DNA from: a virus
IMG/VR virus record: IMGVR_UViG_3300045922_000530
Location: 1 to 20,631 of that record
Reading direction: 5' to 3' (one strand)
DNA: 20,631 nucleotides
In this document: positions 370 to 18,062 of the stretch, piece after piece
Numbering within the stretch: the first letter of the stretch is position 1
Layout: each line of letters begins with the position of its first letter
Made by a program: the position numbers and the translations under genes
Notes under the pieces: model-generated
What the model saw: the letters and a program-made list of their open reading frames with translations, nothing else
What the model was told of the DNA's origin: nothing
Database searches by the model: none

Positions 370-1314
370 TTAACTTTTAATTTGGGTTTTTCCGTAAATA
401 TAATCTATTAATAACTTTTTCAATGGTGATTTAGTTGCTTCATACTTTGTCTGTAAAGTCTTAATCTGTTTTAGATATCCTTGCTCTTTTATTACCCATT
501 CCTCTTTCGCATTTCCAAAATCAATCTTTAATTGCGTATGCTCTTTTGTCAACTCTTCTAATTGTTTTCCAAATTCACTGTATTTATTTTTATAATCATT
601 AAGCATTTCGTTATCTTTAATTAGTTGAAGATTTTGCTTTGTTAAGTTATCAATCTGGGTATTAAGATTTATAATTGTCTTTTCCTTATCGTCAATCTCT
701 CTTTGGTATTTATCGTTTAATTCTTTTATCTTTGCTTCATATTCTTCTTTTTTCACATAATAACCATCAACAACTCTCTTCCACTCATCAATACACACCT
801 TTACGCTTTCTTTATTATTCATATCAATACCTTTGTAATAATTATCTTGACTATTGCTAAATTGATTTTTAAAGTAAGCCTTCGCTTTCTCAATATCATA
901 AACTACATAACCTTTCAAAATAGAATAAGTTGAAGTCGGTTTTTCTTTTCCGTCCCACACATCAAATAATTTCTGATTGCCAATGAAGATAACATAATGA
1001 CTACCATCTGTTCTTGGATTTCCGTCCCAATCCACCTCAACTATACAAGCACCATATTGACTAATTGCTTTTTTAACCTCATCATTATTGTAAGACCAAC
1101 CTCTATAAACAAAGCCCGGTATCTTTGCCCAGTATGTTAAATTTTGATTTACGAATGCTCCATTATTCTTCATCCATTCATTCATTTGTAAAGGAGTGAT
1201 TTCAAAAATGTTAGATAGGCAGGTGATAACGCAGCCAAAATTTCCGATGGTTTCATTGCTGAAACCTAATTTTTCGTTTTTCCATTTTGGATCATTTTGA
1301 CTTTGGTATAACAT
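370..1314 (-). CDS. C39-like papain-fold cysteine peptidase with coiled-coil stalk (putative endolysin or virion lysin)
   Basis: 314 aa. The N-terminal half (about 1-145) matches the Peptidase_C39_2 pattern. The start MLYQSQNDPKWKNEKLG is followed by NFGCVITCLSNI with likely nucleophile Cys28, GSHYVIFIG with His106, and DVWDG supplying Asp118 or Asp121. Proteins of this family cleave peptide bonds and in phages often act on the wall peptide. From about residue 175 the chain becomes a long charged coiled coil (KKEEYEAKIKELNDKYQREI and onward), ending in a short basic tail, with no recognisable wall-binding domain. The gene follows the fibre gene and precedes small membrane proteins, which fits an endolysin. 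A virion-bound lysin or fibre-associated protease remains possible. The upstream gap is 36 nt and shows no obvious SD. Confidence 0.65.
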   Translation of the reverse strand: MLYQSQNDPKWKNEKLGFSNETIGNFGCVITCLSNIFEITPLQMNEWMKNNGAFVNQNLTYWAKIPGFVYRGWSYNNDEVKKAISQYGACIVEVDWDGNPRTDGSHYVIFIGNQKLFDVWDGKEKPTSTYSILKGYVVYDIEKAKAYFKNQFSNSQDNYYKGIDMNNKESVKVCIDEWKRVVDGYYVKKEEYEAKIKELNDKYQREIDDKEKTIINLNTQIDNLTKQNLQLIKDNEMLNDYKNKYSEFGKQLEELTKEHTQLKIDFGNAKEEWVIKEQGYLKQIKTLQTKYEATKSPLKKLLIDYIYGKTQIKS

Positions 1315-8300: not shown

Positions 8301-9187
8301 AATGCTCCTATTGCAAATGATGTTAATCTGTCTAATGATGTTGGGTCTCGTCTGTCAAGTCTTGCAAGAAATTCATCTTCCGTCACATTCCCAAGACCAC
8401 CCACCGCTCTTGCTAAAAGTTGTTTTGCTAACGGATTATTGACAAAAGTTTTAGATTTGCCAACAAGACCTGATATTAATGGATTAGTGTATTGAAAAAC
8501 CGCACTCGCCTGAATAGTTGCCCCCATTCCTTTTCCAGCCTCCTCAAAAAAATCTCTTCCTTGTGCTTTTCCTATTCCACCCTGTATTAGTCCCCCCAAT
8601 CCCACCATCAATGGATTTCTTAAAGCAAAACCCGCCCCAAGTATTGATTGACCTACTTTAATTCCGCTACTTATTGTTTTTTCTTTTTGTGCTTGAAGTG
8701 GTTTTTCAAACTTTTCAAATTCCCTTGATTGTTGATTGTAAATATCTTGCGCTCTTTTGAATAACTCTCTTGATTTTTGCGGGTCTGTTTTGGCTAATTT
8801 TATTGCCATCTGTTGGTATCTGTCGGCTATCTCAAATTGTTTTTTTTGAGTATCAAGCATTCGATTAACCTCAATATTGCTTGCTATTGCACCACCAAGT
8901 CCTTTACCAAGCTCATATCCGGGCTTAATTGCCACTTCATTAATAAAGGTGGGGATTGTTTTTGTTAGGGTGTTATTAACTAAATTACCGGTAAATTGAA
9001 TTGGCCTAAATGCAGGTTCAAACTTAGTGATTGCCTGTGCTTTTTGAGGATTAGCCTGAGCCCACGAGGAGATCGCCTCTCTTATTGGTTCAATCGTTGG
9101 TTTTCCTTGTCTTATAAATCCTTGATTATCCGAGATAGCGGATTGAATATCCTCTAATTTTTTTTTCAAAACTGATAGGATGTTCAT
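5318..9187 (-). CDS. Giant internal virion / ejection protein with polyvalent-protein features
   Basis: 1289 aa, the largest gene in the window. The N-terminal third is helical with Gly/Ala-rich, weakly hydrophobic stretches (about 175-235, SILGAGFALRNPLMVGLGG). A Pro/Gly-rich linker follows (about 385-425, containing GGGGEGG). Around residue 626 the segment LSGPLTHLKNFFSNLFQTYF resembles domains of phage large polyvalent proteins (LPD38-like pattern of 'N-LSGP-TH-N--SN'). Residues about 820-900 hold membrane-compatible helices (SKALIGSVLTSIGTTLALQ, AAYFGPYALSLLLPAAVKY). The region from about 1060 is charged and coiled, and the last ~90 residues are very basic (KVKIKTSEKSKKIKIGKPPA and repeats of RI/KI). 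Such proteins are packaged in the capsid and injected with the DNA. It has no visible catalytic motif. No SD precedes the ATG. Confidence 0.6.
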   Translation of the reverse strand: MNILSVLKKKLEDIQSAISDNQGFIRQGKPTIEPIREAISSWAQANPQKAQAITKFEPAFRPIQFTGNLVNNTLTKTIPTFINEVAIKPGYELGKGLGGAIASNIEVNRMLDTQKKQFEIADRYQQMAIKLAKTDPQKSRELFKRAQDIYNQQSREFEKFEKPLQAQKEKTISSGIKVGQSILGAGFALRNPLMVGLGGLIQGGIGKAQGRDFFEEAGKGMGATIQASAVFQYTNPLISGLVGKSKTFVNNPLAKQLLARAVGGLGNVTEDEFLARLDRRDPTSLDRLTSFAIGALVASGGDIEDWNRLKKETKDFLIKAGNKLNLDTRPHYEVVGIKPEKAKSADSLPEYVWQAWKRMFPQDRMEAQAGFVRIGGDQPKPTIKIKPQETTSPLSPIGEMGGGGEGGMKPPKAPETVPQPPLKERQFFQTVEKAKSTPEEILGKTKESAERYYQPKSNPELLKEASKIIDDLGVEKATKAFFDDKVSYEKAVALGDLLARKAFSEGRWDEGFKIVEEMAKKGTRLGRGVQSFAIWSRLTPEGMLNYADKLLKQAEENYKKSFTGKIFKKVDFNLTNDEKKMIYDLMQKAMTAPDDQTKGYYSRQALKIISEKIPFGVSEILDVYRFNNMLSGPLTHLKNFFSNLFQTYFNLPLTLATSGKPKQALEYEVNAIKNVGRGLDAFIDTFLGKTPTDLSKTETIISEAKYQRIPRALRISTDLMESADMFFQNIIKPSLIATGMKEEEAAKLAEEFLFRKPMSARGYGIVSDSLRAMGEMLEFAGRKFKPIRWFVPFIRTPFNFAAAQVEYSPIGFANLIGAEDKRMVLSKALIGSVLTSIGTTLALQNRVTWAPPTDPEEKKYFYASGKKPFSIEINGKWIPAAYFGPYALSLLLPAAVKYQYEQSPDALSEEDWKKLTKTIGSVLYFWSQSTPMSGLGGFVRTLQGDIDWNVIRNLGYTAQQVIPYNSLLRWISNFVDDIYRKPKTFGEQFISGIPFLTKTIKEYYQEPTGEPARRLLINQFLPYSIGIEKDTSGIYNQLLQERQQERQTTRYINQLKKKMEEGEELSPQELQLALQSQTKKEPTTPLEALRERAKLEASYKKANHLFELYIKADREDVRTKIEQNVRSMGLDFEEGLYNYLSNQDSDARKEFILASIKGIEDRQKMIEALALFRKKSIISSKKLLTDNLIDELYDEGIITESEKRYLKSIKGTQKEGGKVKIKTSEKSKKIKIGKPPALRVGGGVRIPKVRISTGKISRGYRLKPPTIKIAKRKPTNYSKLAKKILLLTK

Positions 9188-9203
9188 TTATCATATTAAA
9201 AAC

Positions 9204-10520
9204 TTAAAGTCCCAACTGTTGTCGGCGTTTTTTTGCTAAATCAAGCATTGAGCCATAGATATCTTCACCCCATCCTGCGCTTGTTCCGCCTTGTAATCCA
9301 CCAAGACCCTGCAAAGCTTGATAGGTTAACTCTTGTGGCGAGAAGTTTCCCATTTGCCCAAGTTGAATTTTGTAATCTTGCAACTGTGCAATTCTTTGCA
9401 AAGCCCAGTTTTCAAGCATTTGACTTCTTTGCACAGCCTCTTGTCTTATGGCGTTTGCGGTATTGATGGCGTTTGCTAATAAACTTTGGTCAAGTGCGTT
9501 TAATGCATCAAGTTTTCTCCAAGACGCATTAGCCTTTTCCGTATCAATCCATTGCTTTAATTGTCTATATTTATCAGCAACATCTTGCATTTTCTGAGTA
9601 AAGTCTTGCTCTAACTGATTTTTGGCTAAATCATAGGTGGATTTAACATCTACTTCTTTTTGAGCAATTTGATTAAGATTATCTAATGCTCCTCTTGCCA
9701 CCTGTGCGCTTGATCTTGCCGCCTGCTTTCCCAAAACCGCTGGTAAAACCTCTTGAGTTGCCGATGACCATCCTGCCCCCATTAATCCCGCTCTCATCTG
9801 TGAGGCTTTCAAAAGTTGTCTTAATTGAGATAGGATATCATTACTTGCCTGTTGCTGTTTTTGCTCAACATCTTGCCTTGCTGTTTGTAATTTCTCCAAT
9901 GAGCCTTGTTTTGCAATATCAAGTCCTTGAATTCCTTGCTGTTTTGCTGTTTCAAGTCGTTGGATATCCTCCTGTTGCCATTGAGGATATAATCCTGCCA
10001 TTTCATCAAGTCGTCTTACAAAATCTGAATAAGCCGCCTCAATATTTCCTCTTATCTGATCGGCTGATGGTCCAGACGACTCTGGTCTAATTAGATAATA
10101 ACCAAAGGGCAACTTGTTTACATCCCATCCTCTTGCTAATGCCTCGCCTTCCGTAATTCCTCTTGTTCCGCCGCCACCACCACCTGTATTAGTGTTAGTG
10201 TTAGTATTGGTATTGGTGTTGGTATTAGTAGTGGGTTGGGTTGTTGTTTGTTGTGTTGTTGAGCGATTAGTAAATTGAACCGAAGAAGTGGGATAAACTT
10301 GACCAGTATCAAACAACGTATAGCCACCAGGTACACTCATAATAGGCTGTGCCGATGAAGATAACATTGGTCCTGTTGTTCCCGGTGATAAATAAGGATT
10401 TCCCCCTTTTGACGGTGGTTGATATGGTGTTGGGACAGGATAAAGATAAGGATAATTTGTTGCCATAATAATATTTTTGTGAACTATTAATAAAAACAGG
10501 ATTATAAAAATCCTTTTCAT
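9204..10520 (-). CDS. Coiled-coil virion protein with Asn-Thr and poly-Gly linker (ejection or internal protein)
   Basis: 438 aa from the first ATG, which has a good AAGGGA SD. A second possible start is ATG at 10466 (MATNYPYLYPVPTPYQPPSK). The longer form begins with MKRIFIILFLLIV, a signal-like hydrophobic segment that is unusual for a virion protein. Residues about 20-90 are Pro/Tyr/Ser/Thr-rich. Residues about 96-117 are an (Asn-Thr)7 run followed by six Gly. From about residue 145 the chain is helical and Gln/Ala-rich (LETAKQQGIQGLDIAKQGSL and similar 11-residue-like repeats), with a Gly-rich break near 243 (MRAGLMGAGWSSA) and a second one near the C-terminus. Such Gln/Ala coiled coils are common in podoviral internal proteins. 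It sits just before the 1289-aa gene, suggesting both belong to the ejection apparatus. Confidence 0.55.
   Translation of the reverse strand: MKRIFIILFLLIVHKNIIMATNYPYLYPVPTPYQPPSKGGNPYLSPGTTGPMLSSSAQPIMSVPGGYTLFDTGQVYPTSSVQFTNRSTTQQTTTQPTTNTNTNTNTNTNTNTGGGGGGTRGITEGEALARGWDVNKLPFGYYLIRPESSGPSADQIRGNIEAAYSDFVRRLDEMAGLYPQWQQEDIQRLETAKQQGIQGLDIAKQGSLEKLQTARQDVEQKQQQASNDILSQLRQLLKASQMRAGLMGAGWSSATQEVLPAVLGKQAARSSAQVARGALDNLNQIAQKEVDVKSTYDLAKNQLEQDFTQKMQDVADKYRQLKQWIDTEKANASWRKLDALNALDQSLLANAINTANAIRQEAVQRSQMLENWALQRIAQLQDYKIQLGQMGNFSPQELTYQALQGLGGLQGGTSAGWGEDIYGSMLDLAKKRRQQLGL
10167..10232 (-). repeat. In-frame Asn-Thr dipeptide repeat followed by Gly6
   Basis: Seven Asn-Thr units (about 10185-10232) followed by six Gly codons (10167-10184) within the 438-aa virion protein. 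At DNA level it is a degenerate hexamer array; synonymous codons are mixed (ACA, ACC, ACT; AAT, AAC), so the amino-acid pattern is more regular than the DNA. It probably forms a flexible linker. Confidence 0.8.
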
Positions 10521-10532
10521 TTTTATCCCTTT

Positions 10533-10730
10533 TTATCCTAATTTTTCCAATTCTTTCAATGCTATCTTTGTGAAGCCGATTACTTTGGATATCTTTTTGT
10601 TTCCTTCCTGCAAAGTTGCTTTTTCAACCGCTCTGTAAAAGTTAATCGCTTGCCTTAATGCTTCAGCGACTAATTCTTTTCCTTGCAGTTTTTTTTCATT
10701 GGCTTCTTGCTTTTTTTCCTCTTTTGCCAT
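10533..10730 (-). CDS. Small charged helical protein, unknown function
   Basis: 65 aa, starting MAKEEKKQEANEKKLQGKEL. It is Lys/Glu-rich and predicted wholly helical, with an amphipathic part at about 20-45 (VAEALRQAINFYRAVEKATL). It has no Cys and no TM. It lies between the basic 62-aa gene and the 438-aa virion protein, with gaps of 33 and 12 nt, in the transcript that starts after terminator C. AGGA lies about 13 nt before the ATG, a weak SD. Family not recognised; a minor internal or assembly protein is possible from position alone. Confidence 0.6.
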   Translation of the reverse strand: MAKEEKKQEANEKKLQGKELVAEALRQAINFYRAVEKATLQEGNKKISKVIGFTKIALKELEKLG

Positions 10731-10763
10731 AGTTTCTTTTTTTTCCTGAACTTTTAACGATTT

Positions 10764-10952
10764 TTAGCCCTTTAGATGCTTTTTTACTTTCTCCCAGAAA
10801 ATTTTTCCAGCAATTTTTTCTCCTATTTTTTTGCTATGGTATTTTCTACCAGCTTGCATTGCTATTTTCTCAAAATTGCCAGTCTTGTAATTTCTTCCTA
10901 ACTTTCTAACCATTGCTCTTCCTCTCGCTCCTTTTGGTTTAAGTTTTGCCAT
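10764..10952 (-). CDS. Small highly basic protein, unknown function
   Basis: 62 aa starting MAKLKPKGARGRAMVRKLGR. It has about twenty Lys/Arg against only four Glu and no Asp. Two short Gly-containing turns separate predicted helices (NFEKIAMQAGRKYHSKKIGE, KIFWEKVKKHLKG). The charge would suit DNA binding or packaging inside the head, but no fold is recognised. It is the first gene after the promoter-terminator leader C and the first of the ejection module, with AAAGAAG a few bases before the ATG as a modest SD. Confidence 0.6.
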   Translation of the reverse strand: MAKLKPKGARGRAMVRKLGRNYKTGNFEKIAMQAGRKYHSKKIGEKIAGKIFWEKVKKHLKG

Positions 10953-10970
10953 ATCTTCTTTTTAACTTAT

Positions 10971-11028
10971 AAAAAAACCGCCCTCTTAAGATAACACAAG
11001 CATTACTGTGCCATCGTAAGAAGGCGGT
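10971..11028 (-). terminator. Long-stem intrinsic terminator in the leader of the ejection module (site C)
   Basis: On the minus strand ACCGCC (11028-11023) pairs with GGCGGT (10982-10977), and the inner arms continue pairing for about 23 positions with one mismatch and several G-U pairs around a short loop. A run of U follows directly (10971-10977). Two tiny frames lie within the hairpin, ATG-GCA-CAG-TAA and an overlapping ATG with five sense codons. It lies downstream of the promoter at 11045-11073 and upstream of the 62-aa gene. Confidence 0.85.
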
Positions 11029-11044
11029 CAAGCCTCTGATAATA

Positions 11045-11073
11045 AATCTATCATATTATATTTTTCTTGTCAA
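11045..11073 (-). promoter_or_regulatory. Sigma70-type promoter, site C
   Basis: TTGACA (11068-11073) and TAGATT (11045-11050) are spaced 17 nt apart, beginning just after the TAG of the small glycosyltransferase gene. A start near 11038 would give a transcript of about 67 nt if it stops at the following terminator. Same design as sites A and B. Confidence 0.7.
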
Positions 11074-11076
11074 GGG

Positions 11077-11631
11077 CTAATTATGTTCCCACAATACTTC
11101 ATCAACCTTTCCCCATTTAGCCTGATTTTTAACCAAATCCTCAATAAAAAGCCCATCGGCTTGATAGGAGCGGTAATTATAACCAATCTTTTTTGCAAAC
11201 TCCGTTTTTGCGATAAATCCGCCTGATGAGATATGATTGACTTGAGGCTGGCAGTTTAAAATCCCACCAAACTTATTATTCTTTTCATTGCATATTACAA
11301 AATCCAAGTTTTCATTTTCCGCCTTTTCAATCAGTTTCTCAAAAAAAGTAGGATAATATCTATCGTCGCAGTTTAGAAAACAAGTATATTTTTCATTTGA
11401 CACGCTTAAAATCTTTGCCCGTTTTTCATGTCCAAAGTCATTGTAGTTTTTGTCTATCAAATAGCCCGCCCATTTCAGATCAAAACTTAAAACTCTTTCT
11501 ATATACTCTTTGATACTGTCTGATACTGTTAGAAAACAAACAAAGTCTTTATAGGTTTGATTTTTCAAATCAGCCAATAGATTAAAAATCGCCTCATTGT
11601 TTTGATGGCTTGTTATCCCCACGAACAGCAT
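11077..11631 (-). CDS. Small GT-A (family 2-like) glycosyltransferase
   Basis: 184 aa, at the short end for a GT2 domain. It begins MLFVGITSHQNNEAIFNLL and contains LNCDDRYYPTFFEKLIEKA. The Cys-Asp-Asp element sits where the metal- and nucleotide-sugar-binding DXD motif of GT-A enzymes lies. A later HISSGGFIAKTEFAKKIGY matches the acceptor-side region of GT2 enzymes. It lacks the usual C-terminal extension. It overlaps the nucleotidyltransferase gene by 38 nt, and its stop is followed directly by promoter C. With its two neighbours it probably transfers sugars to a virion protein or a cell-surface glycan; the substrate is unknown. Confidence 0.65.
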   Translation of the reverse strand: MLFVGITSHQNNEAIFNLLADLKNQTYKDFVCFLTVSDSIKEYIERVLSFDLKWAGYLIDKNYNDFGHEKRAKILSVSNEKYTCFLNCDDRYYPTFFEKLIEKAENENLDFVICNEKNNKFGGILNCQPQVNHISSGGFIAKTEFAKKIGYNYRSYQADGLFIEDLVKNQAKWGKVDEVLWEHN

Positions 11632-12052
11632 TTTTAATCATCGTTGAACTGATAAAGTCGGAGTAAGGAACATAGATTAAGACGATATCGTTTTTATCAA
11701 GCCACTCTTGAGTAAATCCCATTTGTTTATAGTAGTCTTTTTTTGCCCAATCGCTTCCTATCACAATAAAATCAGGTTTAATCTTTGCGATTGTTATTTT
11801 ACTATCCTCTCCCCCTTCATTCTCAACCACCAAATCAACTAAGCCCGTCTTGTAAAGCATTTTTTCTCTTGTTTTGTAATCAAAAACTGTCTTTTTTCCT
11901 TTAAATTTTTCAACAAACCAATCAGGATTTAGGGCAACCACCACTCTTCCATCATCTCCTGCAATTTTTCGGCAAAACTGCAAAAACCTAATATGACCAG
12001 CGTGTAAGATATCAAACGTTCCCCCTGTGTAAACGGTTCTTCCCATAAACAT
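11594..12052 (-). CDS. Cytidylyltransferase-like nucleotidyltransferase (HxGH family)
   Basis: 152 aa from the ATG at 12052; another ATG lies two codons later. VYTGGTFDILHAGHIRFL carries the HxGH nucleotide-binding signature, and VPYSDFISSTMIK near the C-terminus matches the ISSTxIK-type motif of the same superfamily. It also has the central IKPDFIVIGSDWAKKDYY segment. Family members join CTP or ATP to a phosphorylated sugar or alcohol (glycerol-3-phosphate in TagD, heptose-1-phosphate in the HldE C-terminal domain). The exact substrate cannot be read. It overlaps the GT-B gene before it and the GT-A gene after it and has no SD, so it is probably translated by coupling. Its role is likely to make the activated donor for the flanking transferases. 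Confidence 0.75.
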   Translation of the reverse strand: MFMGRTVYTGGTFDILHAGHIRFLQFCRKIAGDDGRVVVALNPDWFVEKFKGKKTVFDYKTREKMLYKTGLVDLVVENEGGEDSKITIAKIKPDFIVIGSDWAKKDYYKQMGFTQEWLDKNDIVLIYVPYSDFISSTMIKNAVRGDNKPSKQ

Positions 12053-13160
12053 CAACTAAATTTTTAATCATTTCAACCCAATCTTTGGCTATTTCCTCCA
12101 AATCTCGGTATTTGAAAACCCAATCATAGGCTTTTTGAGCCACCAATCGTCTTTTTAAGGGATTTAATATCAAAAACTCAAGTTTTTTTTCAAATTCATC
12201 GGTGGTTTCGTATAAATAACCTGTCTCGCCCTCAATTATTTCCTCGTTATAAGGCAATGAATTATATGCCAAAGTTGCAGTTTTGGTGGCAGAGTATTCA
12301 TAAAACTTAATTGAACTTTTGTATTGGTTAAAGACGTGATCTGTTAACGGGCAAAGACCAATATCCAAATTCAGGCAAGCCTGCCTATATCCGTGTCCGT
12401 CGGCATTTATCCAGCCGTAATGATGCAATCTTTCCTTTGGTATCCATTTCTCAACCACGCCAAACCACTGTCCGATATGGTAATAGTGAACGTGAGGATA
12501 TCGCTCCATTATTTTTTTTAATGATGGAAGAATTGAGTATAAATCTTCAAAATGTGATGCACCACCCGCCCAACCAATTTTTACTATCTTATCGTCTTTT
12601 TTGCAATCAAGGCAAGGGAAGTATTTTTTTGATAGGCAGTTTGGGATAACAACAACATTATCATCTCGTCCAGTTGTGCTTTTAAGATATTCTTTCATCT
12701 TAAAAGTCGTGGTTGTAATAACGGTTGCTTTTTTTAATGTCGCTTTCATCTTTTCAAGCCTTTTTTTATTCTCCTCAACTGAAAATCCCGCCACCCCATC
12801 TTTCCAAAGCCAAGTGCCGTCAGATAGTCTAACATTTTTTGTTCCATAAACCTCATAAAGATTAGAGAAAGGATTTGGCTCGTCATAATAGTCGTCAATA
12901 TCAATAATCAAAGGCTTATTAGGTGAAATATTAATCTCGGATAAAATTTCATAAGAAGAGGGAGCGGCTAAATGGCAAAGAAAGACATCGGCTTTGCTAA
13001 TCACCTCCTGTAATTGCTCTTGTGATAATCTAATATCAAGATAGGCGACATCAAGCAGTTTATTTTCTCTTGCATATCGAGCAAACTGCTCTATCCTATA
13101 CCAAAAAACACCATTATATGCTTGTGGTTCAAGCACCAAAACCTTTATCTTTTCCATCAT
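12012..13160 (-). CDS. GT-B fold glycosyltransferase (GT4-like)
   Basis: 382 aa from the ATG at 13160. The N-terminal half holds IKVLVLEPQAYNGVFWYRIEQF (start of a Rossmann domain, shown here as the region about 5-27), then PLIIDIDDYYDEPNPF. The C-terminal domain begins near residue 193 with VKIGWAGGASHFEDL. NLDIGLCPLTDHVFNQYKSS and then KFYEYSATKTATLAY mark the donor-nucleotide site of GT4-type enzymes, where the Glu of the EYSA-like element usually contacts the sugar. EEIIEGETGYLY fits the conserved 'G-TG-L' segment. Its start overlaps the 102-aa gene before it by about 30 nt and its end overlaps the nucleotidyltransferase gene. Product and acceptor are unknown; virion or host-surface glycosylation is inferred from context. 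Confidence 0.75.
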   Translation of the reverse strand: MMEKIKVLVLEPQAYNGVFWYRIEQFARYARENKLLDVAYLDIRLSQEQLQEVISKADVFLCHLAAPSSYEILSEINISPNKPLIIDIDDYYDEPNPFSNLYEVYGTKNVRLSDGTWLWKDGVAGFSVEENKKRLEKMKATLKKATVITTTTFKMKEYLKSTTGRDDNVVVIPNCLSKKYFPCLDCKKDDKIVKIGWAGGASHFEDLYSILPSLKKIMERYPHVHYYHIGQWFGVVEKWIPKERLHHYGWINADGHGYRQACLNLDIGLCPLTDHVFNQYKSSIKFYEYSATKTATLAYNSLPYNEEIIEGETGYLYETTDEFEKKLEFLILNPLKRRLVAQKAYDWVFKYRDLEEIAKDWVEMIKNLVDVYGKNRLHRGNV

Positions 13161-13437
13161 CAATTACCTTCCACTCGGGAAACTTATCAAAAAAATGCTT
13201 GTCTTTGTAATAGTCTGGTCCATAAACCCGAGTAAAGAATTGATCTACCTCATAAGGCATTGAAGCAATCTTTCGCCACACCTTTGATTTTGAGCCTTTA
13301 TCATAAATACCCTGCTTTTTGGCCTCAAGCACATATTGTTTAACCGGTGAGTCCCAAGTTAAAAAGTGAGTAATTAACTCCTGTCTTCTTTTTTTATTGA
13401 TATCGTCCGCAATTTTTTTAATCGCCTCATCAAACAT
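13129..13437 (-). CDS. Small conserved-looking head-region protein, unknown function
   Basis: 102 aa starting MFDEAIKKIADDINKKRRQE. It has two helical parts and then an aromatic-rich segment (DQFFTRVYGPDYYKDKHFFD). The stop of the preceding gene overlaps the start as ATGTTTGA. The C-terminus runs about 30 nt into the GT-B gene. Its position, two genes after the capsid gene, would allow a head-completion or capsid-accessory role, but no family is recognised. Confidence 0.6.
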   Translation of the reverse strand: MFDEAIKKIADDINKKRRQELITHFLTWDSPVKQYVLEAKKQGIYDKGSKSKVWRKIASMPYEVDQFFTRVYGPDYYKDKHFFDKFPEWKVIDDGKDKGFGA

Positions 13438-13831
13438 TTTTTAGCCTTTCCACCAAACTTTTAATCTGACTTTCAATTTTAAGATACTGATAAACTCTTG
13501 ATAACGACGGTTTTCCTCCCAATTTATACTGCACCTCCTTTATCACCATTGCTTTATTTTTTTGTCTGTTTAGACCCTGCTCTGTCAATAACTTGTCAAT
13601 TTTTTGAAGATTTGATAATTCGTCTTTATCATCAACTCTTATTCCTAAATATCTTTTGTAGGTGATAAGATGTAATGCCTCATCAGTTAGATTTTCCTCA
13701 TCGTTTTTAATATCTGCCGCTTCTTTGACTTTTGATAAAAACTCATCATCCATTTTTGGAAATCCTTCTTTAACCTGCTCGGAATTTTTTTCTTTTACTT
13801 TTGTTTCGTTTTCTGTTTTTATGTTGTCCAT
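13430..13831 (-). CDS. Small charged protein downstream of capsid gene, unknown function
   Basis: 133 aa. The first 30 residues are Lys/Glu/Asn-rich and probably disordered. The rest is helical (EALHLITYKRYLGIRVDDKD, LQKIDKLLTEQGLNRQKNKA, SLSRVYQYLKIESQIKSLVE). The last part has a helix-turn-helix look (KPSLSRVYQYLKI) without a convincing match. The annotated ATG has no SD and lies just after a very strong hairpin. An alternative ATG at 13753 (MDDEFLSKV) has an AAGGA about nine bases upstream and may be the true start. Confidence 0.55.
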   Translation of the reverse strand: MDNIKTENETKVKEKNSEQVKEGFPKMDDEFLSKVKEAADIKNDEENLTDEALHLITYKRYLGIRVDDKDELSNLQKIDKLLTEQGLNRQKNKAMVIKEVQYKLGGKPSLSRVYQYLKIESQIKSLVERLKNV

Positions 13832-13843
13832 AAAAAATTTGCA

Positions 13844-13881
13844 AGAGCGAGGGGAGGGGAAGCCCCCTCCCCCAACGCTCT
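13844..13881 (-). terminator. Very stable G+C-rich hairpin after the capsid gene (terminator or 3'-end stabiliser)
   Basis: AGAGCG / CGCTCT (6 bp) flanks an inner 9-bp stem of GGGGAGGGG with its complement, closed by a 4-nt loop. It begins 10 nt after the capsid stop. On the minus strand a T6 run follows only after TTGCAAA, so it is not a canonical terminator. It could be a partial terminator or a block that protects the 3' end of the capsid message. It stands out sharply from the A+T-rich surroundings. Confidence 0.65.
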
Positions 13882-13891
13882 ATAAACTTTT

Positions 13892-14785
13892 TTAACTGGT
13901 TGTTAACTGAGTAATTTTTCCTGAACCTGCTTGATTTCTTGCTTCAAGTGTCAACTCGGTTTCAATTACAGCACGAGTTGCAGATCCAACTTTAGCAACA
14001 TCAACTTTTTTGGTTGGTCTAAGAGTTGCTACTTTCCAAAGGTCATTTTGGGTGATAGCAACTTGAGAAGCAGGCATAAACCTGTCTAAGACCACTTTGA
14101 TGCGCCCAAAGTCGGAATCATAAACATCAATTCCAGCAACAAGTTTCTTTTCATCAGCCTCAACAAATTTAGTTGAGGAAGCGGTGAAGCTTGAAATCTT
14201 TCTTTTCTGGAAACCGTTCACCCAAGCAGTATCCGGTCTTCCACCGGCATTCCAGATTGACTGCAAAGCGTTGTTGAACATTGTTTCAGTCAGTGCTTCA
14301 TCACCTGTTCCTGTTCCTGTTTCAACATTGGTTGTAATCCAAGCCAAAACGCCTTTTAGTCGGCGAGCAGTTCCAGAGGCACCAGAATTACCAGTCCCAT
14401 TCACCAGAGCATACTCAATATCTCGGGCATGTTCTTTTAACTTTTTAGCCATTTGATAAGCAAATTCATCTTCAATACCAGCAGTATCAACTGCTCTTTG
14501 GGTATCTGATACTTCAACTGGGGTAACAAAGATTTGGGTATAGTTACCCACTCTTGTTCTTGGTGCTGGTTTGCTAAAGTTATAATCAGCGCCCTCGATA
14601 TTGGCGTTATCGGCAGCGTTTGCCAAAGAATCGGTCAACCATTCGTGCAAAACTCCTTTTGCTTTCACTTTACCAAAGGTCGAATACATCGGTGTTTCCT
14701 CTGGTGAGATATTGGTGATGATATCAGATAAATCTTCTCTGTTACCAACTGCATCATAGGTTAATAATGCGCTTGCTTGTGCCAT
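13892..14785 (-). CDS. Major capsid protein, DUF5309 / SU10-type
   Basis: 297 aa. The N-terminus (GNREDLSDIITNISPEETPM, then KAKGVLHEWLTDSL and EGADY) is the signature of the DUF5309 (phage SU10 major capsid protein) family, which has the HK97 fold. The rest carries expected elements: VGNYTQIFVTPVEVSDTQRA, then EFAYQMAKKLKEHARDIEYA (backbone helix), a Gly/Thr-rich loop, and C-terminal WKVATLRPTKKVDVAKVGSA. The capsid is built from many copies in the cytoplasm around the scaffold. It follows the scaffold gene and has a GGGGGTG SD about ten bases before the ATG, which suits high expression. Confidence 0.85.
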   Translation of the reverse strand: MAQASALLTYDAVGNREDLSDIITNISPEETPMYSTFGKVKAKGVLHEWLTDSLANAADNANIEGADYNFSKPAPRTRVGNYTQIFVTPVEVSDTQRAVDTAGIEDEFAYQMAKKLKEHARDIEYALVNGTGNSGASGTARRLKGVLAWITTNVETGTGTGDEALTETMFNNALQSIWNAGGRPDTAWVNGFQKRKISSFTASSTKFVEADEKKLVAGIDVYDSDFGRIKVVLDRFMPASQVAITQNDLWKVATLRPTKKVDVAKVGSATRAVIETELTLEARNQAGSGKITQLTTS

Positions 14786-14815
14786 GTTCTTTTTTCACCC
14801 CCTTTCGCTAAACTT

Positions 14816-15679
14816 TTACTTTCTAAACAGCCTTCTTTTAAGAAACTTTGCCCAAGCCTCATCAGACCCTTCGGAACGAGCCTGCTGTAGCAAGGCTTGC
14901 TCTTCTTGATCGACAGCCTTAGGCTTCGTAACTGATGGGGGGATTGATGACTCTTGAGACTGCGATTGCAGTTGCGAGAGTGTTTTTGCTCCCTCAACTG
15001 TTGCTCTTTTTTCCAATATCCTTTTTACCCTTGCATATACTTCTGATGGTTTTAGGGTGGGAAAAAAGTCTTCTTGTCCCGTAAGCGGGCTAACCGCAAA
15101 ATTGGCAATTCTGTATTGTTCTTCAATAAATTGCCGTAAATCGGGATCGTTTTTGACTTCTTCATCACTCATCACCTTTTCCCAATCAGCGATATGCTCT
15201 TGCAAGGCTTGCTCATATCTTCTTTTATTCTCAACAGTTGAAACTGCTTTCATTACCACCGCCTGTTCTCGTTGAGCAATTCTTCGCTCAAGTTCGGCGG
15301 GGTCAATCTCGCTCCCATACTCCTCAGGCTTTATAAGCGGCTCATTAAAAGCGCTCATCAGCTCAGGCGGAATTTGCGATGTGCTTTCCGCCTTTGCTTT
15401 TAGCCTTTGGATAAGAGATGAGATTTTCTGCCTATCCTCATCGGTTTTGGCAGTTTGCAGCTTCTCCTGCAACCTCTCAATCCGTCTCTCAAGTCGTGAC
15501 TCCCCTTTTTCGGAAGGCTGTTCTTGAGAACTTTTAATGTTCTCTGATACCTCGTTTGAGGTATCAGTATGTCCTTGTGAGGTTTCCCCCACTTGCTCCG
15601 CCCCGACGGAAGAGGATTGGACCTCCTCTTGAACAGGCGATGTATCAGCCTGCTCTACAGGGATTTTTTGATCATCCAT
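14816..15679 (-). CDS. Scaffold protein
   Basis: 287 aa from the ATG at 15679, chosen for its AAGGA SD; a GTG 13 codons earlier is possible but poorly placed. The first ~60 residues are acidic, Ser/Gln-rich and probably disordered. A long charged helix follows (SRLERRIERLQEKLQTAKTD, then DPAELERRIAQREQAVVMKA). Residues after about 220 are Gln/Ser-rich, and the last ten (KFLKRRLFRK) are strongly basic. An acidic coiled body with a basic C-terminal helix that touches the coat protein is the typical scaffold design. It lies immediately before the capsid gene, 30 nt upstream. Confidence 0.75.
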   Translation of the reverse strand: MDDQKIPVEQADTSPVQEEVQSSSVGAEQVGETSQGHTDTSNEVSENIKSSQEQPSEKGESRLERRIERLQEKLQTAKTDEDRQKISSLIQRLKAKAESTSQIPPELMSAFNEPLIKPEEYGSEIDPAELERRIAQREQAVVMKAVSTVENKRRYEQALQEHIADWEKVMSDEEVKNDPDLRQFIEEQYRIANFAVSPLTGQEDFFPTLKPSEVYARVKRILEKRATVEGAKTLSQLQSQSQESSIPPSVTKPKAVDQEEQALLQQARSEGSDEAWAKFLKRRLFRK

Positions 15680-15683
15680 AAAA

Positions 15684-15765
15684 TCCTTACAACCCTTGTG
15701 GGCGATAACTGTTAACACTATCCTTAAAGGATAGGCAACTTAGCAAACCTTTATTTGCTAAATTG
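15684..15765 (-). promoter_or_regulatory. Inverted-repeat cluster in the scaffold leader (possible translational control)
   Basis: A 12-bp stem (15736-15747 with 15754-15765, one G-U) contains the stop codon of the upstream gene in its loop. Next comes the near-perfect palindrome CTATCC-TTAAA-GGATAG at 15718-15734, then TGTTAACA at 15710-15717. The TATCCTT segment could also pair with the scaffold SD (AAGGA, 15684-15688) or with an AAAGGATA just inside the previous gene, giving alternative folds. No U-run or promoter boxes are seen. Confidence 0.45.
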
Positions 15766-15990
15766 TTTATCCTTTAATATCGGCATTCCGTTTTTGTCAA
15801 TTCCAACTAATATCTTATTTGGCTTTATAAAAAATCCGTGTCTAAACTCGCAACTTTTACAGTAAATATAGTTTCCTTTTTGCCTCCACTCGTGCTTTTT
15901 CTTTTTTGCCTCCTCAATCGCTTTTGCTCTTATCTCCTCAATGTTAACTTCAAACGATAATTCATCATTTTTGCTGCTGTTGTTGTTCAT
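15751..15990 (-). CDS. Small unknown protein with CxxC pair
   Basis: 79 aa starting MNNNSSKNDELSFEVNIEEI. A Lys-rich helix (RAKAIEEAKKKKHEWRQKGN) precedes YIYCKSCEFRHGFFIKPNKI and VGIDKNGMPIL. Only one Cys-x-x-Cys pair plus a nearby His is present, so it may bind metal with partners or be a degenerate ribbon. The start codon lies inside the last codons of the preceding 119-aa gene (26-nt overlap), where one CAA-rich stretch is read as Gln in one frame and Asn/Ser in the other. It precedes the scaffold gene. Function unknown. Confidence 0.6.
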   Translation of the reverse strand: MNNNSSKNDELSFEVNIEEIRAKAIEEAKKKKHEWRQKGNYIYCKSCEFRHGFFIKPNKILVGIDKNGMPILKDKQFSK

Positions 15991-16324
15991 TGAACATTTT
16001 TGGCAAATTTTTTATCTCGTTTAAATACTTGATGATTGCCGACACTATCAAATACTTAAACCCAACCGTCTCAACCGTCTCATCGCCTGATATAATCTCA
16101 CTCCCCGATAACGGGTCAATCATCTGCTTTAAAAAATCAATTCTCTGCTCAATCATCTTCTCAATCAACTCCCATCTTGGATCGGCTGATAAAGTTGCTA
16201 TTTGCTCTTGTTCCTCTTGCGTTTTTTCAAAGTCCGATTTCTCTTCCACCACCTTCTTGAATACCGCCTGAAATTGCGGTATTGGGTTGTCCGATTGGAT
16301 TTTCTGCTTGCTGTTGCTGACCAT
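15965..16324 (-). CDS. Small acidic helical protein overlapping portal gene, unknown function
   Basis: 119 aa. It is helical and acidic (EEKSDFEKTQEEQEQIATLS), with SADPRWELIEKMIEQRIDFL resembling other small phage proteins between portal and scaffold, and ends in a Gln run. The ATG is inside the portal gene, giving a 98-nt overlap. A GTG about 60 nt later (VEEKSDF) with AGAAGG just upstream could be the true start and would shorten the overlap. Family not recognised. Confidence 0.55.
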   Translation of the reverse strand: MVSNSKQKIQSDNPIPQFQAVFKKVVEEKSDFEKTQEEQEQIATLSADPRWELIEKMIEQRIDFLKQMIDPLSGSEIISGDETVETVGFKYLIVSAIIKYLNEIKNLPKMFNEQQQQQK

Positions 16325-18062
16325 AGCCTATTTGCATCAATAAATTTTTAATATCATCAGGCGCATTGGCAATTACATTTTTTAACTCGGGATTTTCAAA
16401 ATTAACCTCGCCCCCTTGCTGATTTTCTGCCCCCTCAACGATTTTATCCCAATCCTGAACCCCGCTTGAAATAATCCAGCGCTTAAATAATTCGCCAAAA
16501 TTAATTGCTACATCACCCAAAACTACTTTTCCACTCTTCATTATTTGATCCATTGCTCCTGGTATCTTAAAGATTAATGACAAAATCTGTGTTAACGTCT
16601 CATTTTCCAACATCTCATCTTTTTTGTAGGTTGAACCAGCATCAATGAAAAAACGACAGTTAACATTTTTTGTCTCATCGGGTTTTACTATCAACTGCCC
16701 ATATTTTCCGCTTTCAAACATCTCAACTACATCAGGATTAATCTCAGCAATCGCTTTTAAGTCTTGCTCGGATAAATAAACTTTAATCGGCTTTTCTTGT
16801 TTTTTGGTAATTAGGTCAACAAATCTATCAATCACTTGCTCCAGAGCCCGCTCCATCATAAATCTATCCCAATTATCTCTTGCTGACTCTCTCATCTGAA
16901 GCATTGCTAATGCTCGTGGTGTTTTCCCCATTCCTGGATCGGTTTCTTTTGAAACAGTGGTATCGGTTGTCCCCATTGCATTTAAAATTGCAGCATTTAA
17001 GAAAGAATAGGTTTGCGTGAATGTGTTTAATCCTAATGGTGATAACGGCAACTGCGCTACTGCTCCTTGTCCTTTCACCAACCATTTCTGCCCCGCCCCA
17101 TACTGAAGGGTTCGCAAAACCACCAATTGCGGATTAATCATTAACGGAGGAAAGATTGACATCTTTGCCCCGTCTAAATAAAGATTAATCAACGAATTAA
17201 TCGCATACTGTAATGTTTTTAATCGCTCAATCTCGCCAAGCCCAATTATTCTATCCAAAAGTGGGAAGCAATGTTTTAAAACTACCGGTAGTTTGCTATT
17301 CTTTTGTGGATTTTCAATCTCACGGAGAATAACTTTATGGGTTGGTGAAAAAGTTGTCCACTTGTCTTTTTCATACTTTGTTATTAACTCATACATCTCC
17401 TCGCCACTTCCCTGCTGTTCATATTTTGTCTCAACATACGACTTATACTCTTTGGTTGTTTTTTCTTTTGCCTCAAGCAATTTATCGATATTTTTCCATA
17501 CCTTTTTGTCTCTTGTCTCAAGCCAGCCTTTGGTGACATATGAGCGAACAAAGACATAGTCGCTGTCATTGTAGTTTTGAATTCCAGGCTGAAAGATTAG
17601 GTTTCGCATTGGGATAAGGTAAAAGTCTGGCCCAACATAATCATCCTTTACCACCCAATCCACCAAGACACCAAAAGAGCCGTAAACATTGCTGTATAAA
17701 TCCCATAATCTTGTCTTTGTCAAGAAGTCAAACTGAACATTGGCATTGGGGATAACATAGTCTTTCAATAAGATGTTAAGAATGATATTTTTTCCTCTAT
17801 CCTCTTTTGTTAGCGCCTGCACTTTTCCTGTTGGATTTTGTGCCATTACCCGGGCGGATCGTTCAATAAGATAGGTTGATAGTTTTGGATCATATACTTT
17901 TGATTTAGTGGTTGCGGTTTCACTATCAGGGGTTTTTCCCAATAAAACCATCTCTTTTTCTTCCCATTCCGAGCGAAGTTGCGACAAGCTATTCTCACCT
18001 TTTTTAAATTCGTCAAGAAGTTGAGTGACGATGACGTCCTGTTTGTATTTTTTGTCTACCAT
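16227..18062 (-). CDS. Portal protein (P22-type podoviral portal)
   Basis: 611 aa. The N-terminal helices and KSKVYDPKLSTYLIERSARV precede the wing and clip region (RLWDLYSNVYGSFGVLVDWV). The stem/crown part holds KTLQYAINSLINLYLDGAKM, then TTDTTVSKETDPGMGKTPRA and LQMRESARDNWDRFM, typical for podoviral portals. The C-terminus is Gln/Gly-rich (QQQQAENPIGQPN) and may reach into the head or be disposable. As the dodecameric ring at one capsid vertex it docks terminase and the tail. It is the first gene after the leader A terminator, has no SD, and begins directly after the conserved GTATAAA junction. It ends in TGA, which argues against TGA recoding. Confidence 0.8.
   Translation of the reverse strand: MVDKKYKQDVIVTQLLDEFKKGENSLSQLRSEWEEKEMVLLGKTPDSETATTKSKVYDPKLSTYLIERSARVMAQNPTGKVQALTKEDRGKNIILNILLKDYVIPNANVQFDFLTKTRLWDLYSNVYGSFGVLVDWVVKDDYVGPDFYLIPMRNLIFQPGIQNYNDSDYVFVRSYVTKGWLETRDKKVWKNIDKLLEAKEKTTKEYKSYVETKYEQQGSGEEMYELITKYEKDKWTTFSPTHKVILREIENPQKNSKLPVVLKHCFPLLDRIIGLGEIERLKTLQYAINSLINLYLDGAKMSIFPPLMINPQLVVLRTLQYGAGQKWLVKGQGAVAQLPLSPLGLNTFTQTYSFLNAAILNAMGTTDTTVSKETDPGMGKTPRALAMLQMRESARDNWDRFMMERALEQVIDRFVDLITKKQEKPIKVYLSEQDLKAIAEINPDVVEMFESGKYGQLIVKPDETKNVNCRFFIDAGSTYKKDEMLENETLTQILSLIFKIPGAMDQIMKSGKVVLGDVAINFGELFKRWIISSGVQDWDKIVEGAENQQGGEVNFENPELKNVIANAPDDIKNLLMQIGYGQQQQAENPIGQPNTAISGGIQEGGGREIGL

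Follow-up and report, generated by a model that had tools for sequence, protein, structure and literature searches.

The gene for a GT-B glycosyltransferase is tied to the gene for the major capsid protein (MCP) in a set of related phages, an observation that goes beyond the original prediction, which started from the position of the gene in a single genome. In the virus record analysed here, this gene leads a cassette of three sugar enzymes. We consider it rather likely that the glycosyltransferases of the cassette glycosylate a virion protein, most likely one of the head, that the nucleotidyltransferase beside them charges one of the sugar donors, and that the coat so formed varies from phage to phage by the exchange of neighbouring genes.

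The record, called the window from here on, is 20,631 bases long, has a GC content of 0.368 and is probably a fragment. Its main genes all lie on the minus strand, running from a TerS-like gene through TerL, the SU10 portal (PF23899), a scaffold-like gene and the SU10-type MCP (13892-14785; PF17236, 2.2e-99) to two small genes and the cassette (11077-13160), after which come two tiny genes, the gene for a 438-aa protein, the ejection protein (phrog_6651), the SU10 adaptor (PF24175) and the tail genes. As originally described, the cassette stands with the capsid gene on one side and the ejection genes on the other. Capsid, portal and adaptor are those of the SU10-type (Kuravirus-like) podophages, among which the capsids of named phages are at most about 42% identical to that of the window. 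A 314-aa protein encoded close to where the late genes end (370-1314, minus strand) has an N-terminus that looks lysin-like by eye; Pfam gives it only a coiled-coil match, below the cut-off.

All three cassette ORFs are present on the minus strand and overlap head to tail. The GT-B enzyme (12012-13160, 382 aa) starts at an ATG, with a TTG 3 nt upstream at 13163; the HxGH nucleotidyltransferase (NTase; 11594-12055, 153 aa) starts at a TTG, or at an ATG at 12052 or 12046; and the last gene encodes a minimal GT-A glycosyltransferase of family 2 (11077-11631, 184 aa). The overlaps measure about 41 nt between GT-B and NTase and 38 nt between NTase and GT-A, and a gene for a 102-aa protein, lying between capsid and cassette (13129-13437, minus strand), shares 32 nt with the GT-B gene. 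A GGAAGG stretch stands at a fitting distance before the GT-B start; for the NTase and GT-A genes no such stretch is visible ahead of the start codon, a pattern consistent with translational coupling. That the cassette shares its transcription with the capsid genes, as had been proposed, is plausible from the overlaps and the common strand; the scan of positions 9000-16500 supports neither side, with promoter-like matches (18 found, 18.1 expected) and terminator-like matches (6 found, 6.2 expected) both at the level of chance. One promoter-like match of this chance-level class (11073-11045, minus strand; 10/12, extended TG) lies just past the GT-A gene, at the transition to the ejection and tail genes.

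The three enzyme classes had been named correctly: each passes its family cut-off, and the folds of the two transferases are borne out by models. The GT-B protein matches PF13524 (1e-7; 32.4 bits against a curated cut-off of 25) and phrog_7162 (8e-29), and falls just under the cut-off of PF00534 (25.1 bits against 26.4). Its model, built from 16 relatives (pLDDT 89.9, pTM 0.88), has a GT4-type GT-B fold, for which the nearest solved structures belong to GT4 enzymes such as BshA, MshA and PimA, and the list also includes SdgB and TarM; the superposition on BshA (3mbo) gives Z 28.7 and an rmsd of 2.8 over 321 residues, and that on sucrose-phosphate synthase gives Z 29.8. Residues E288 and K281 are invariant in 16/16 sequences. 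GT4-like GT-B enzymes carry an EX7E motif, of which E288 is the second Glu; in place of the first the window protein has Y280. With the motif incomplete, the enzyme is filed as GT4-like and not as GT4.

The NTase exceeds the cut-off of PF01467 by far (4.8e-18; 66.1 bits against 21) and matches phrog_7878 (3e-30). The HxGH motif is present in 15/15 aligned NTases, the ISST motif is found in the window protein as well, and the best sequence match in the PDB is glycerol-3-phosphate cytidylyltransferase (GCT; 1.1e-14). The fold family and the HxGH motif are shared with TagD/GCT and HldE, yet the comparison with these enzymes, suggested at the outset, bore out neither assignment. The protein scores 65.6 bits against the NCBIfam equivalog cut-off of 165.4 for TagD (TIGR01518) and 65.9 bits against 181.5 for the nucleotidyltransferase domain of HldE (TIGR02199), so that it is equally near to both and far under both cut-offs. 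TagD carries an RTEG motif, and where this has its Arg the window NTase has a Tyr. Unlike TagD and HldE, the viral NTases have an insertion with the motif DW-KKDYYKQM, common to the viral members and altered in locus L150. In a search for cellular relatives, five of the 80 loci kept reach 47-54% identity, and four of the five have the insertion motif. L230 resembles a polysaccharide locus, judging by ORFs that carry no annotation, and others may be viral, so the substrate of the NTase is not deducible from this set. In the large phages L013, L024, L030 and L036 and their near copies, a gene of the NTase family adjoins a phosphorylase-superfamily gene, away from the capsid genes; in L013 a C-methyltransferase lies one gene beyond the latter.

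The GT-A protein, which is little beyond a bare catalytic domain, passes PF00535 (2.9e-8; 34.3 bits against a curated cut-off of 23.3). Its model (pLDDT 91, pTM 0.88) has a GT2 fold whose relatives are WrtF, SpsA, TarP and TarS; for WrtF (9omm) the Foldseek E-value is 6e-12, with Z 22.5 and an rmsd of 2.2 over 178 residues. Queried as a single protein, it had no confirmed relative in the viral contig scan and none among the phage records. Relatives were obtained with an iterated HMM among the contigs from the other scans; some lie beside or near NTases (L210, L004/L006, L017-L022, L044) and others directly before a GT-B gene (L144, L145, L147-L149). The pairing of NTase and GT-A thus recurs in other phages. 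Active-site residues, the absence of which would weigh against the original prediction, are mostly present on alignment: HxGH and ISST in the NTase, the acidic pair and late Asp in the GT-A enzyme, and E288 and K281 in the GT-B enzyme. The departures are Y280 of the GT-B enzyme and the Tyr in place of the RTEG Arg in the NTase.

In the survey of related phages, also suggested at the outset, the GT-B gene is held constant beside the MCP gene, and the accessory sugar genes vary. The survey consisted of capsid-family and GT-B-family scans, for which 80 of 167 GT-B matches and the best 80 of one capsid scan were taken, followed by an HMM search of the 217 loci. Among the matches listed, 23 of the 217 loci hold both an MCP and a GT-B gene, and four same-contig pairs reduce them to 19 contigs. 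In 19/19 of these, again among the matches listed, the GT-B gene lies downstream of the MCP gene on the same strand, its start 344 to 5136 bases from the capsid gene. Seen from the GT-B side, an MCP is present in 14/14 listed loci with at least 230 bits and at least 6 kb upstream, and in 0/36 of the weaker GT-B loci listed. Seen from the capsid side, 6/9 listed contigs with an MCP of at least 355 bits have the GT-B gene; the other three (L053, L054 and L056) offer only 2374, 527 and 1307 bases, respectively, downstream before the contig ends. L053 may be a true exception, as a 779-aa ORF directly follows its capsid gene and its contig holds no GT-B gene.

The descent of the two genes is also correlated. 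For this comparison, merging near-identical contigs (L145/L148/L149 and L156/L159) left 16 distinct ones; L052, in which the end of the contig truncates the GT-B gene, was omitted, and with the window included the set again numbers 16 phages. Among these, drawn from the matches listed, the MCP and GT-B distances are correlated (Mantel r 0.718, reached in 0/20,000 permutations), as they are among the 10 closest (r 0.733, 63/20,000 permutations), the comparison covering the MCP/GT-B pair alone. The two trees have the same main groups and differ in their fine branching. The GT-B gene is retained with capsids down to 33% identity to that of the window. Among more distant SU10-type capsid loci listed, 77/78 are without it and one has it, and it is found in 0/22 of the listed distant loci whose downstream sequence extends to 6 kb or more. 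The trait therefore marks clades and not all SU10-type capsids, and the enzyme is dispensable in the wider family. Most of the GT-B-free distant capsids that were aligned (L062-L120) have an extra loop of about 10-20 residues that is missing from the GT-B-linked capsids; L061 lacks the loop too.

The 102-aa protein is conserved in the GT-B-bearing clade. Its family matches only loci of this capsid clade, with an MCP in 15/15 hit loci and a GT-B gene in 14/15, the remaining one being L056, whose contig is cut short. The gene lies between capsid and GT-B in L049, L052, L055-L059, L140, L142, L150 and L152, and its product is a possible partner or acceptor of the cassette.

What surrounds the GT-B gene changes from one relative to the next. 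In what follows, "-like" names and several of the methyltransferases denote ORFs read by eye or matches below cut-off. The neighbours are LicD-like, NTase, SDR and sulfotransferase-like ORFs in L049; LicD, SDR and NTase in L150; glycosyltransferases and an epimerase in L057 and L059; a GT17-like TOD1, a glycosyltransferase, a sulfotransferase, DUF2334 and a methyltransferase-like ORF in L055; a glycosyltransferase and a nitroreductase in L058 and L152; Polysacc_synt_2 and a formyl transferase in L142; and GT2, methyltransferase, WbqC and kinase-like genes in L151. L148 and L060 have one small GT-like ORF beside the GT-B gene, and in L078 it stands without a recognised partner. The grouping of LicD-like (in L049 below its cut-off), NTase and SDR genes beside the GT-B gene in two diverged phages (L049:7354-8420 and 8445-9173; L150:6766-8469) hints at phospho-polyol transfer from a CDP donor; the window has no LicD, so that this route is only a lead for it.

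The record of the nearest capsid relative of the window, L052, holds GT-B, methyltransferase-like, HNH-like and GT2-like ORFs. It has 43,222 bases, and its GT-B gene is severed by both contig ends (L311:3-458 and L052:11232-12068); the record is thus probably a circularly permuted, near-complete genome. The HNH-like ORF, read by eye inside the sugar cassette (L311:1698-2129, plus strand), is possibly a homing element able to move such genes.

O-antigen conversion of the gtrABC kind employs a membrane flippase and a membrane-bound transferase. By hydropathy (segment of at least 1.6), membrane segments were found in none of 46 hand-picked cassette proteins from 12 loci of relatives and in none of the three of the window. 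The proteins sampled therefore include no flippase or lipid-linked transferase, and the cassettes do not have the make-up of a system of the gtrABC kind.

Phages of an unrelated group, whose capsids are of the HK97 type, have a comparable arrangement in which capsid (PF05065), GT-B, GT-A-like, NTase and gp6-like connector follow one another. All five genes occur in this order in 9/37 distinct NTase loci, and at least GT-A-like, NTase and connector in 11/37; some of the GT-A-like members escape Pfam (L026). The GT-B profile of this group gave no match in the six loci of the SU10 group on which it was tried, and the arrangement has therefore probably arisen more than once. Versions of it are found in the named phages Pontimonas phage phiPsal1, Microcystis phage Mae-JY09 and podovirus ctQWt234. 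phiPsal1 (MG835450.1), a member of the HK97 group, has the HK97 capsid, a GT-B gene (49.4% identical to that of L007), a GT2 gene (39.5%) and then a neck protein, but differs in having no NTase and in a methyltransferase on the opposite strand; its genome paper, in the portions consulted, leaves the phage undiscussed further (PMC6106888). In ctQWt234 (MW202801.1, a complete genome), capsid gene, sugar cassette and structural genes follow one another, and the last cassette gene is a glycosyltransferase 21.7% identical to the GT-B of the window; its annotated accessory genes, however, are an Fe/S oxidoreductase, PhyH, a NodB-like gene and a methyltransferase, and no NTase is annotated. Elsewhere, Streptomyces phages Targaryen and Francob carry an NTase and two glycosyltransferases away from annotated head genes, and the NTase family is thus not tied to capsids. 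Tetrasphaera phage TJE1 and Streptomyces phage Zuko have glycosyltransferases ahead of the terminase genes, and Synechococcus phage S-CBS4 has two between portal and head protease.

The closest functional parallel comes from mycobacteriophages, for which Freeman et al. (2023) are said to have described virion glycosylation involving Che8 gp110 and Corndog gp38. The three reports consulted, each in part, describe virion glycosylation in these phages (PMC11256854, PMC12619734, PMC12363180), and the sections consulted of one of them name Che8 gp110 and Corndog gp38 as essential glycosyltransferases and report capsid glycosylation by such enzymes (PMC12363180). Che8 has three glycosyltransferase genes in a row near its right genome end, and Wildflower, which encodes a 46.6% relative of Che8 gp110, has an O-methyltransferase and three glycosyltransferase genes flanked by the genes for portal and capsid protease. 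This row within a head module supports the reading of head-module cassettes as virion-modifying. Both systems line up two or three phage-encoded glycosyltransferases, but the window has an NTase of its own, its GT-B gene is capsid-linked and stands behind the capsid gene, and its glycans are predicted ones. The transferases of the window reach hhalign probabilities of 0.6% or less against Che8 gp108, gp109 and gp110 (single sequences on the Che8 side), which argues for similar working and not for membership. In open-licence full text, the scope of the search (subscription papers and preprints lie outside it), no description was found of a capsid-linked, variable glycosyltransferase cassette in such phages.

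Could the cassette instead serve the surface of the host? The original prediction had named virion proteins or a surface glycan as the target. A late change of the surface glycan, acting on cytoplasmic nucleotide-activated precursors, might exclude superinfecting phages or keep progeny off debris, and the same kinds of genes that occur in the relatives (LicD, WbqC, Polysacc_synt_2) do build cell-surface polymers, and the folds of the two transferases resemble those of TarP, TarS and TarM. Set against this, membrane segments are missing from the cassette proteins of the relatives (0/46) and of the window (0/3), and the GT-B gene tracks the descent of the capsid and sits within the head module. 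The capsid linkage and the lack of membrane proteins favour modification of the virion, and a host-surface role appears unlikely.

It is less plausible still that the site after the capsid gene is merely a permissive insertion spot and that the sugar genes are passengers with no set role in the virion. Free exchange of the accessory genes would suit such a scenario, as would the HNH-like ORF in one cassette, but it would leave unexplained a GT-B gene that persists with capsids of no more than 33% identity to that of the window and residues invariant in 16/16 sequences. The cassette genes, moreover, have a GC content of 0.34-0.37, equal to that of the window, and thus show no sign of recent foreign origin. 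Finally, the transferases could add sugars to modified bases in the DNA of the phage, and the sections consulted of a report on Shewanella phage Thanatos describe phage-encoded sugar activation and a glycosyltransferase used for DNA modification (PMC12838424). A thymidylate-synthase-type gene is, however, found in 0/6 contigs of relatives, most of them fragments, and the annotations of two complete genomes, MW202801.1 and MG835450.1, list none; the cassette, furthermore, is placed with head genes and not with replication genes. We regard this last explanation as very improbable.

If, as we favour, a virion protein is modified, which one would carry the sugars? The acceptor cannot be read from the place of the genes alone, and the MCP is the candidate that the linkage suggests. 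In the scheme proposed, the NTase would activate a phosphorylated sugar (or sugar alcohol) by joining a nucleotide to it, and the small GT-A enzyme would use the donor so made. The GT-B enzyme, as the capsid-linked core of the cassette, would add the first or fixed sugar to the protein, or else the two transferases may act in sequence. The resulting coat of glycans would alter what the particle displays, and exchangeable accessory genes would let related phages vary it.

A broader proposal, which we hold tentatively, as possible rather than probable, is that of a lineage-wide system. The vertically inherited GT-B enzyme would be a fixed decorator of the head, and the exchangeable block of donor and tailoring genes a serotype locus of the particle. 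Phages with HK97-type capsids, behind the capsid gene, and mycobacteriophages such as Wildflower, next to it, would have come to the same design independently, and the NTases with the DW-KKDYYKQM insertion would be dedicated to supplying virions with an activated sugar, or sugar alcohol, of an unusual kind.

Should this hold, variable glycans of their own making would cover the particles of many uncultured phages, a trait so far reported from mycobacteriophages in those parts of the literature that were consulted. The NTase family would offer an enzyme with a donor to be assigned, and the capsid-linked cassette a simple genomic marker for virion-glycan candidates. For the phages themselves, such a coat could affect the stability of the particle, its adsorption, and its recognition by grazers, surfaces and immune systems.
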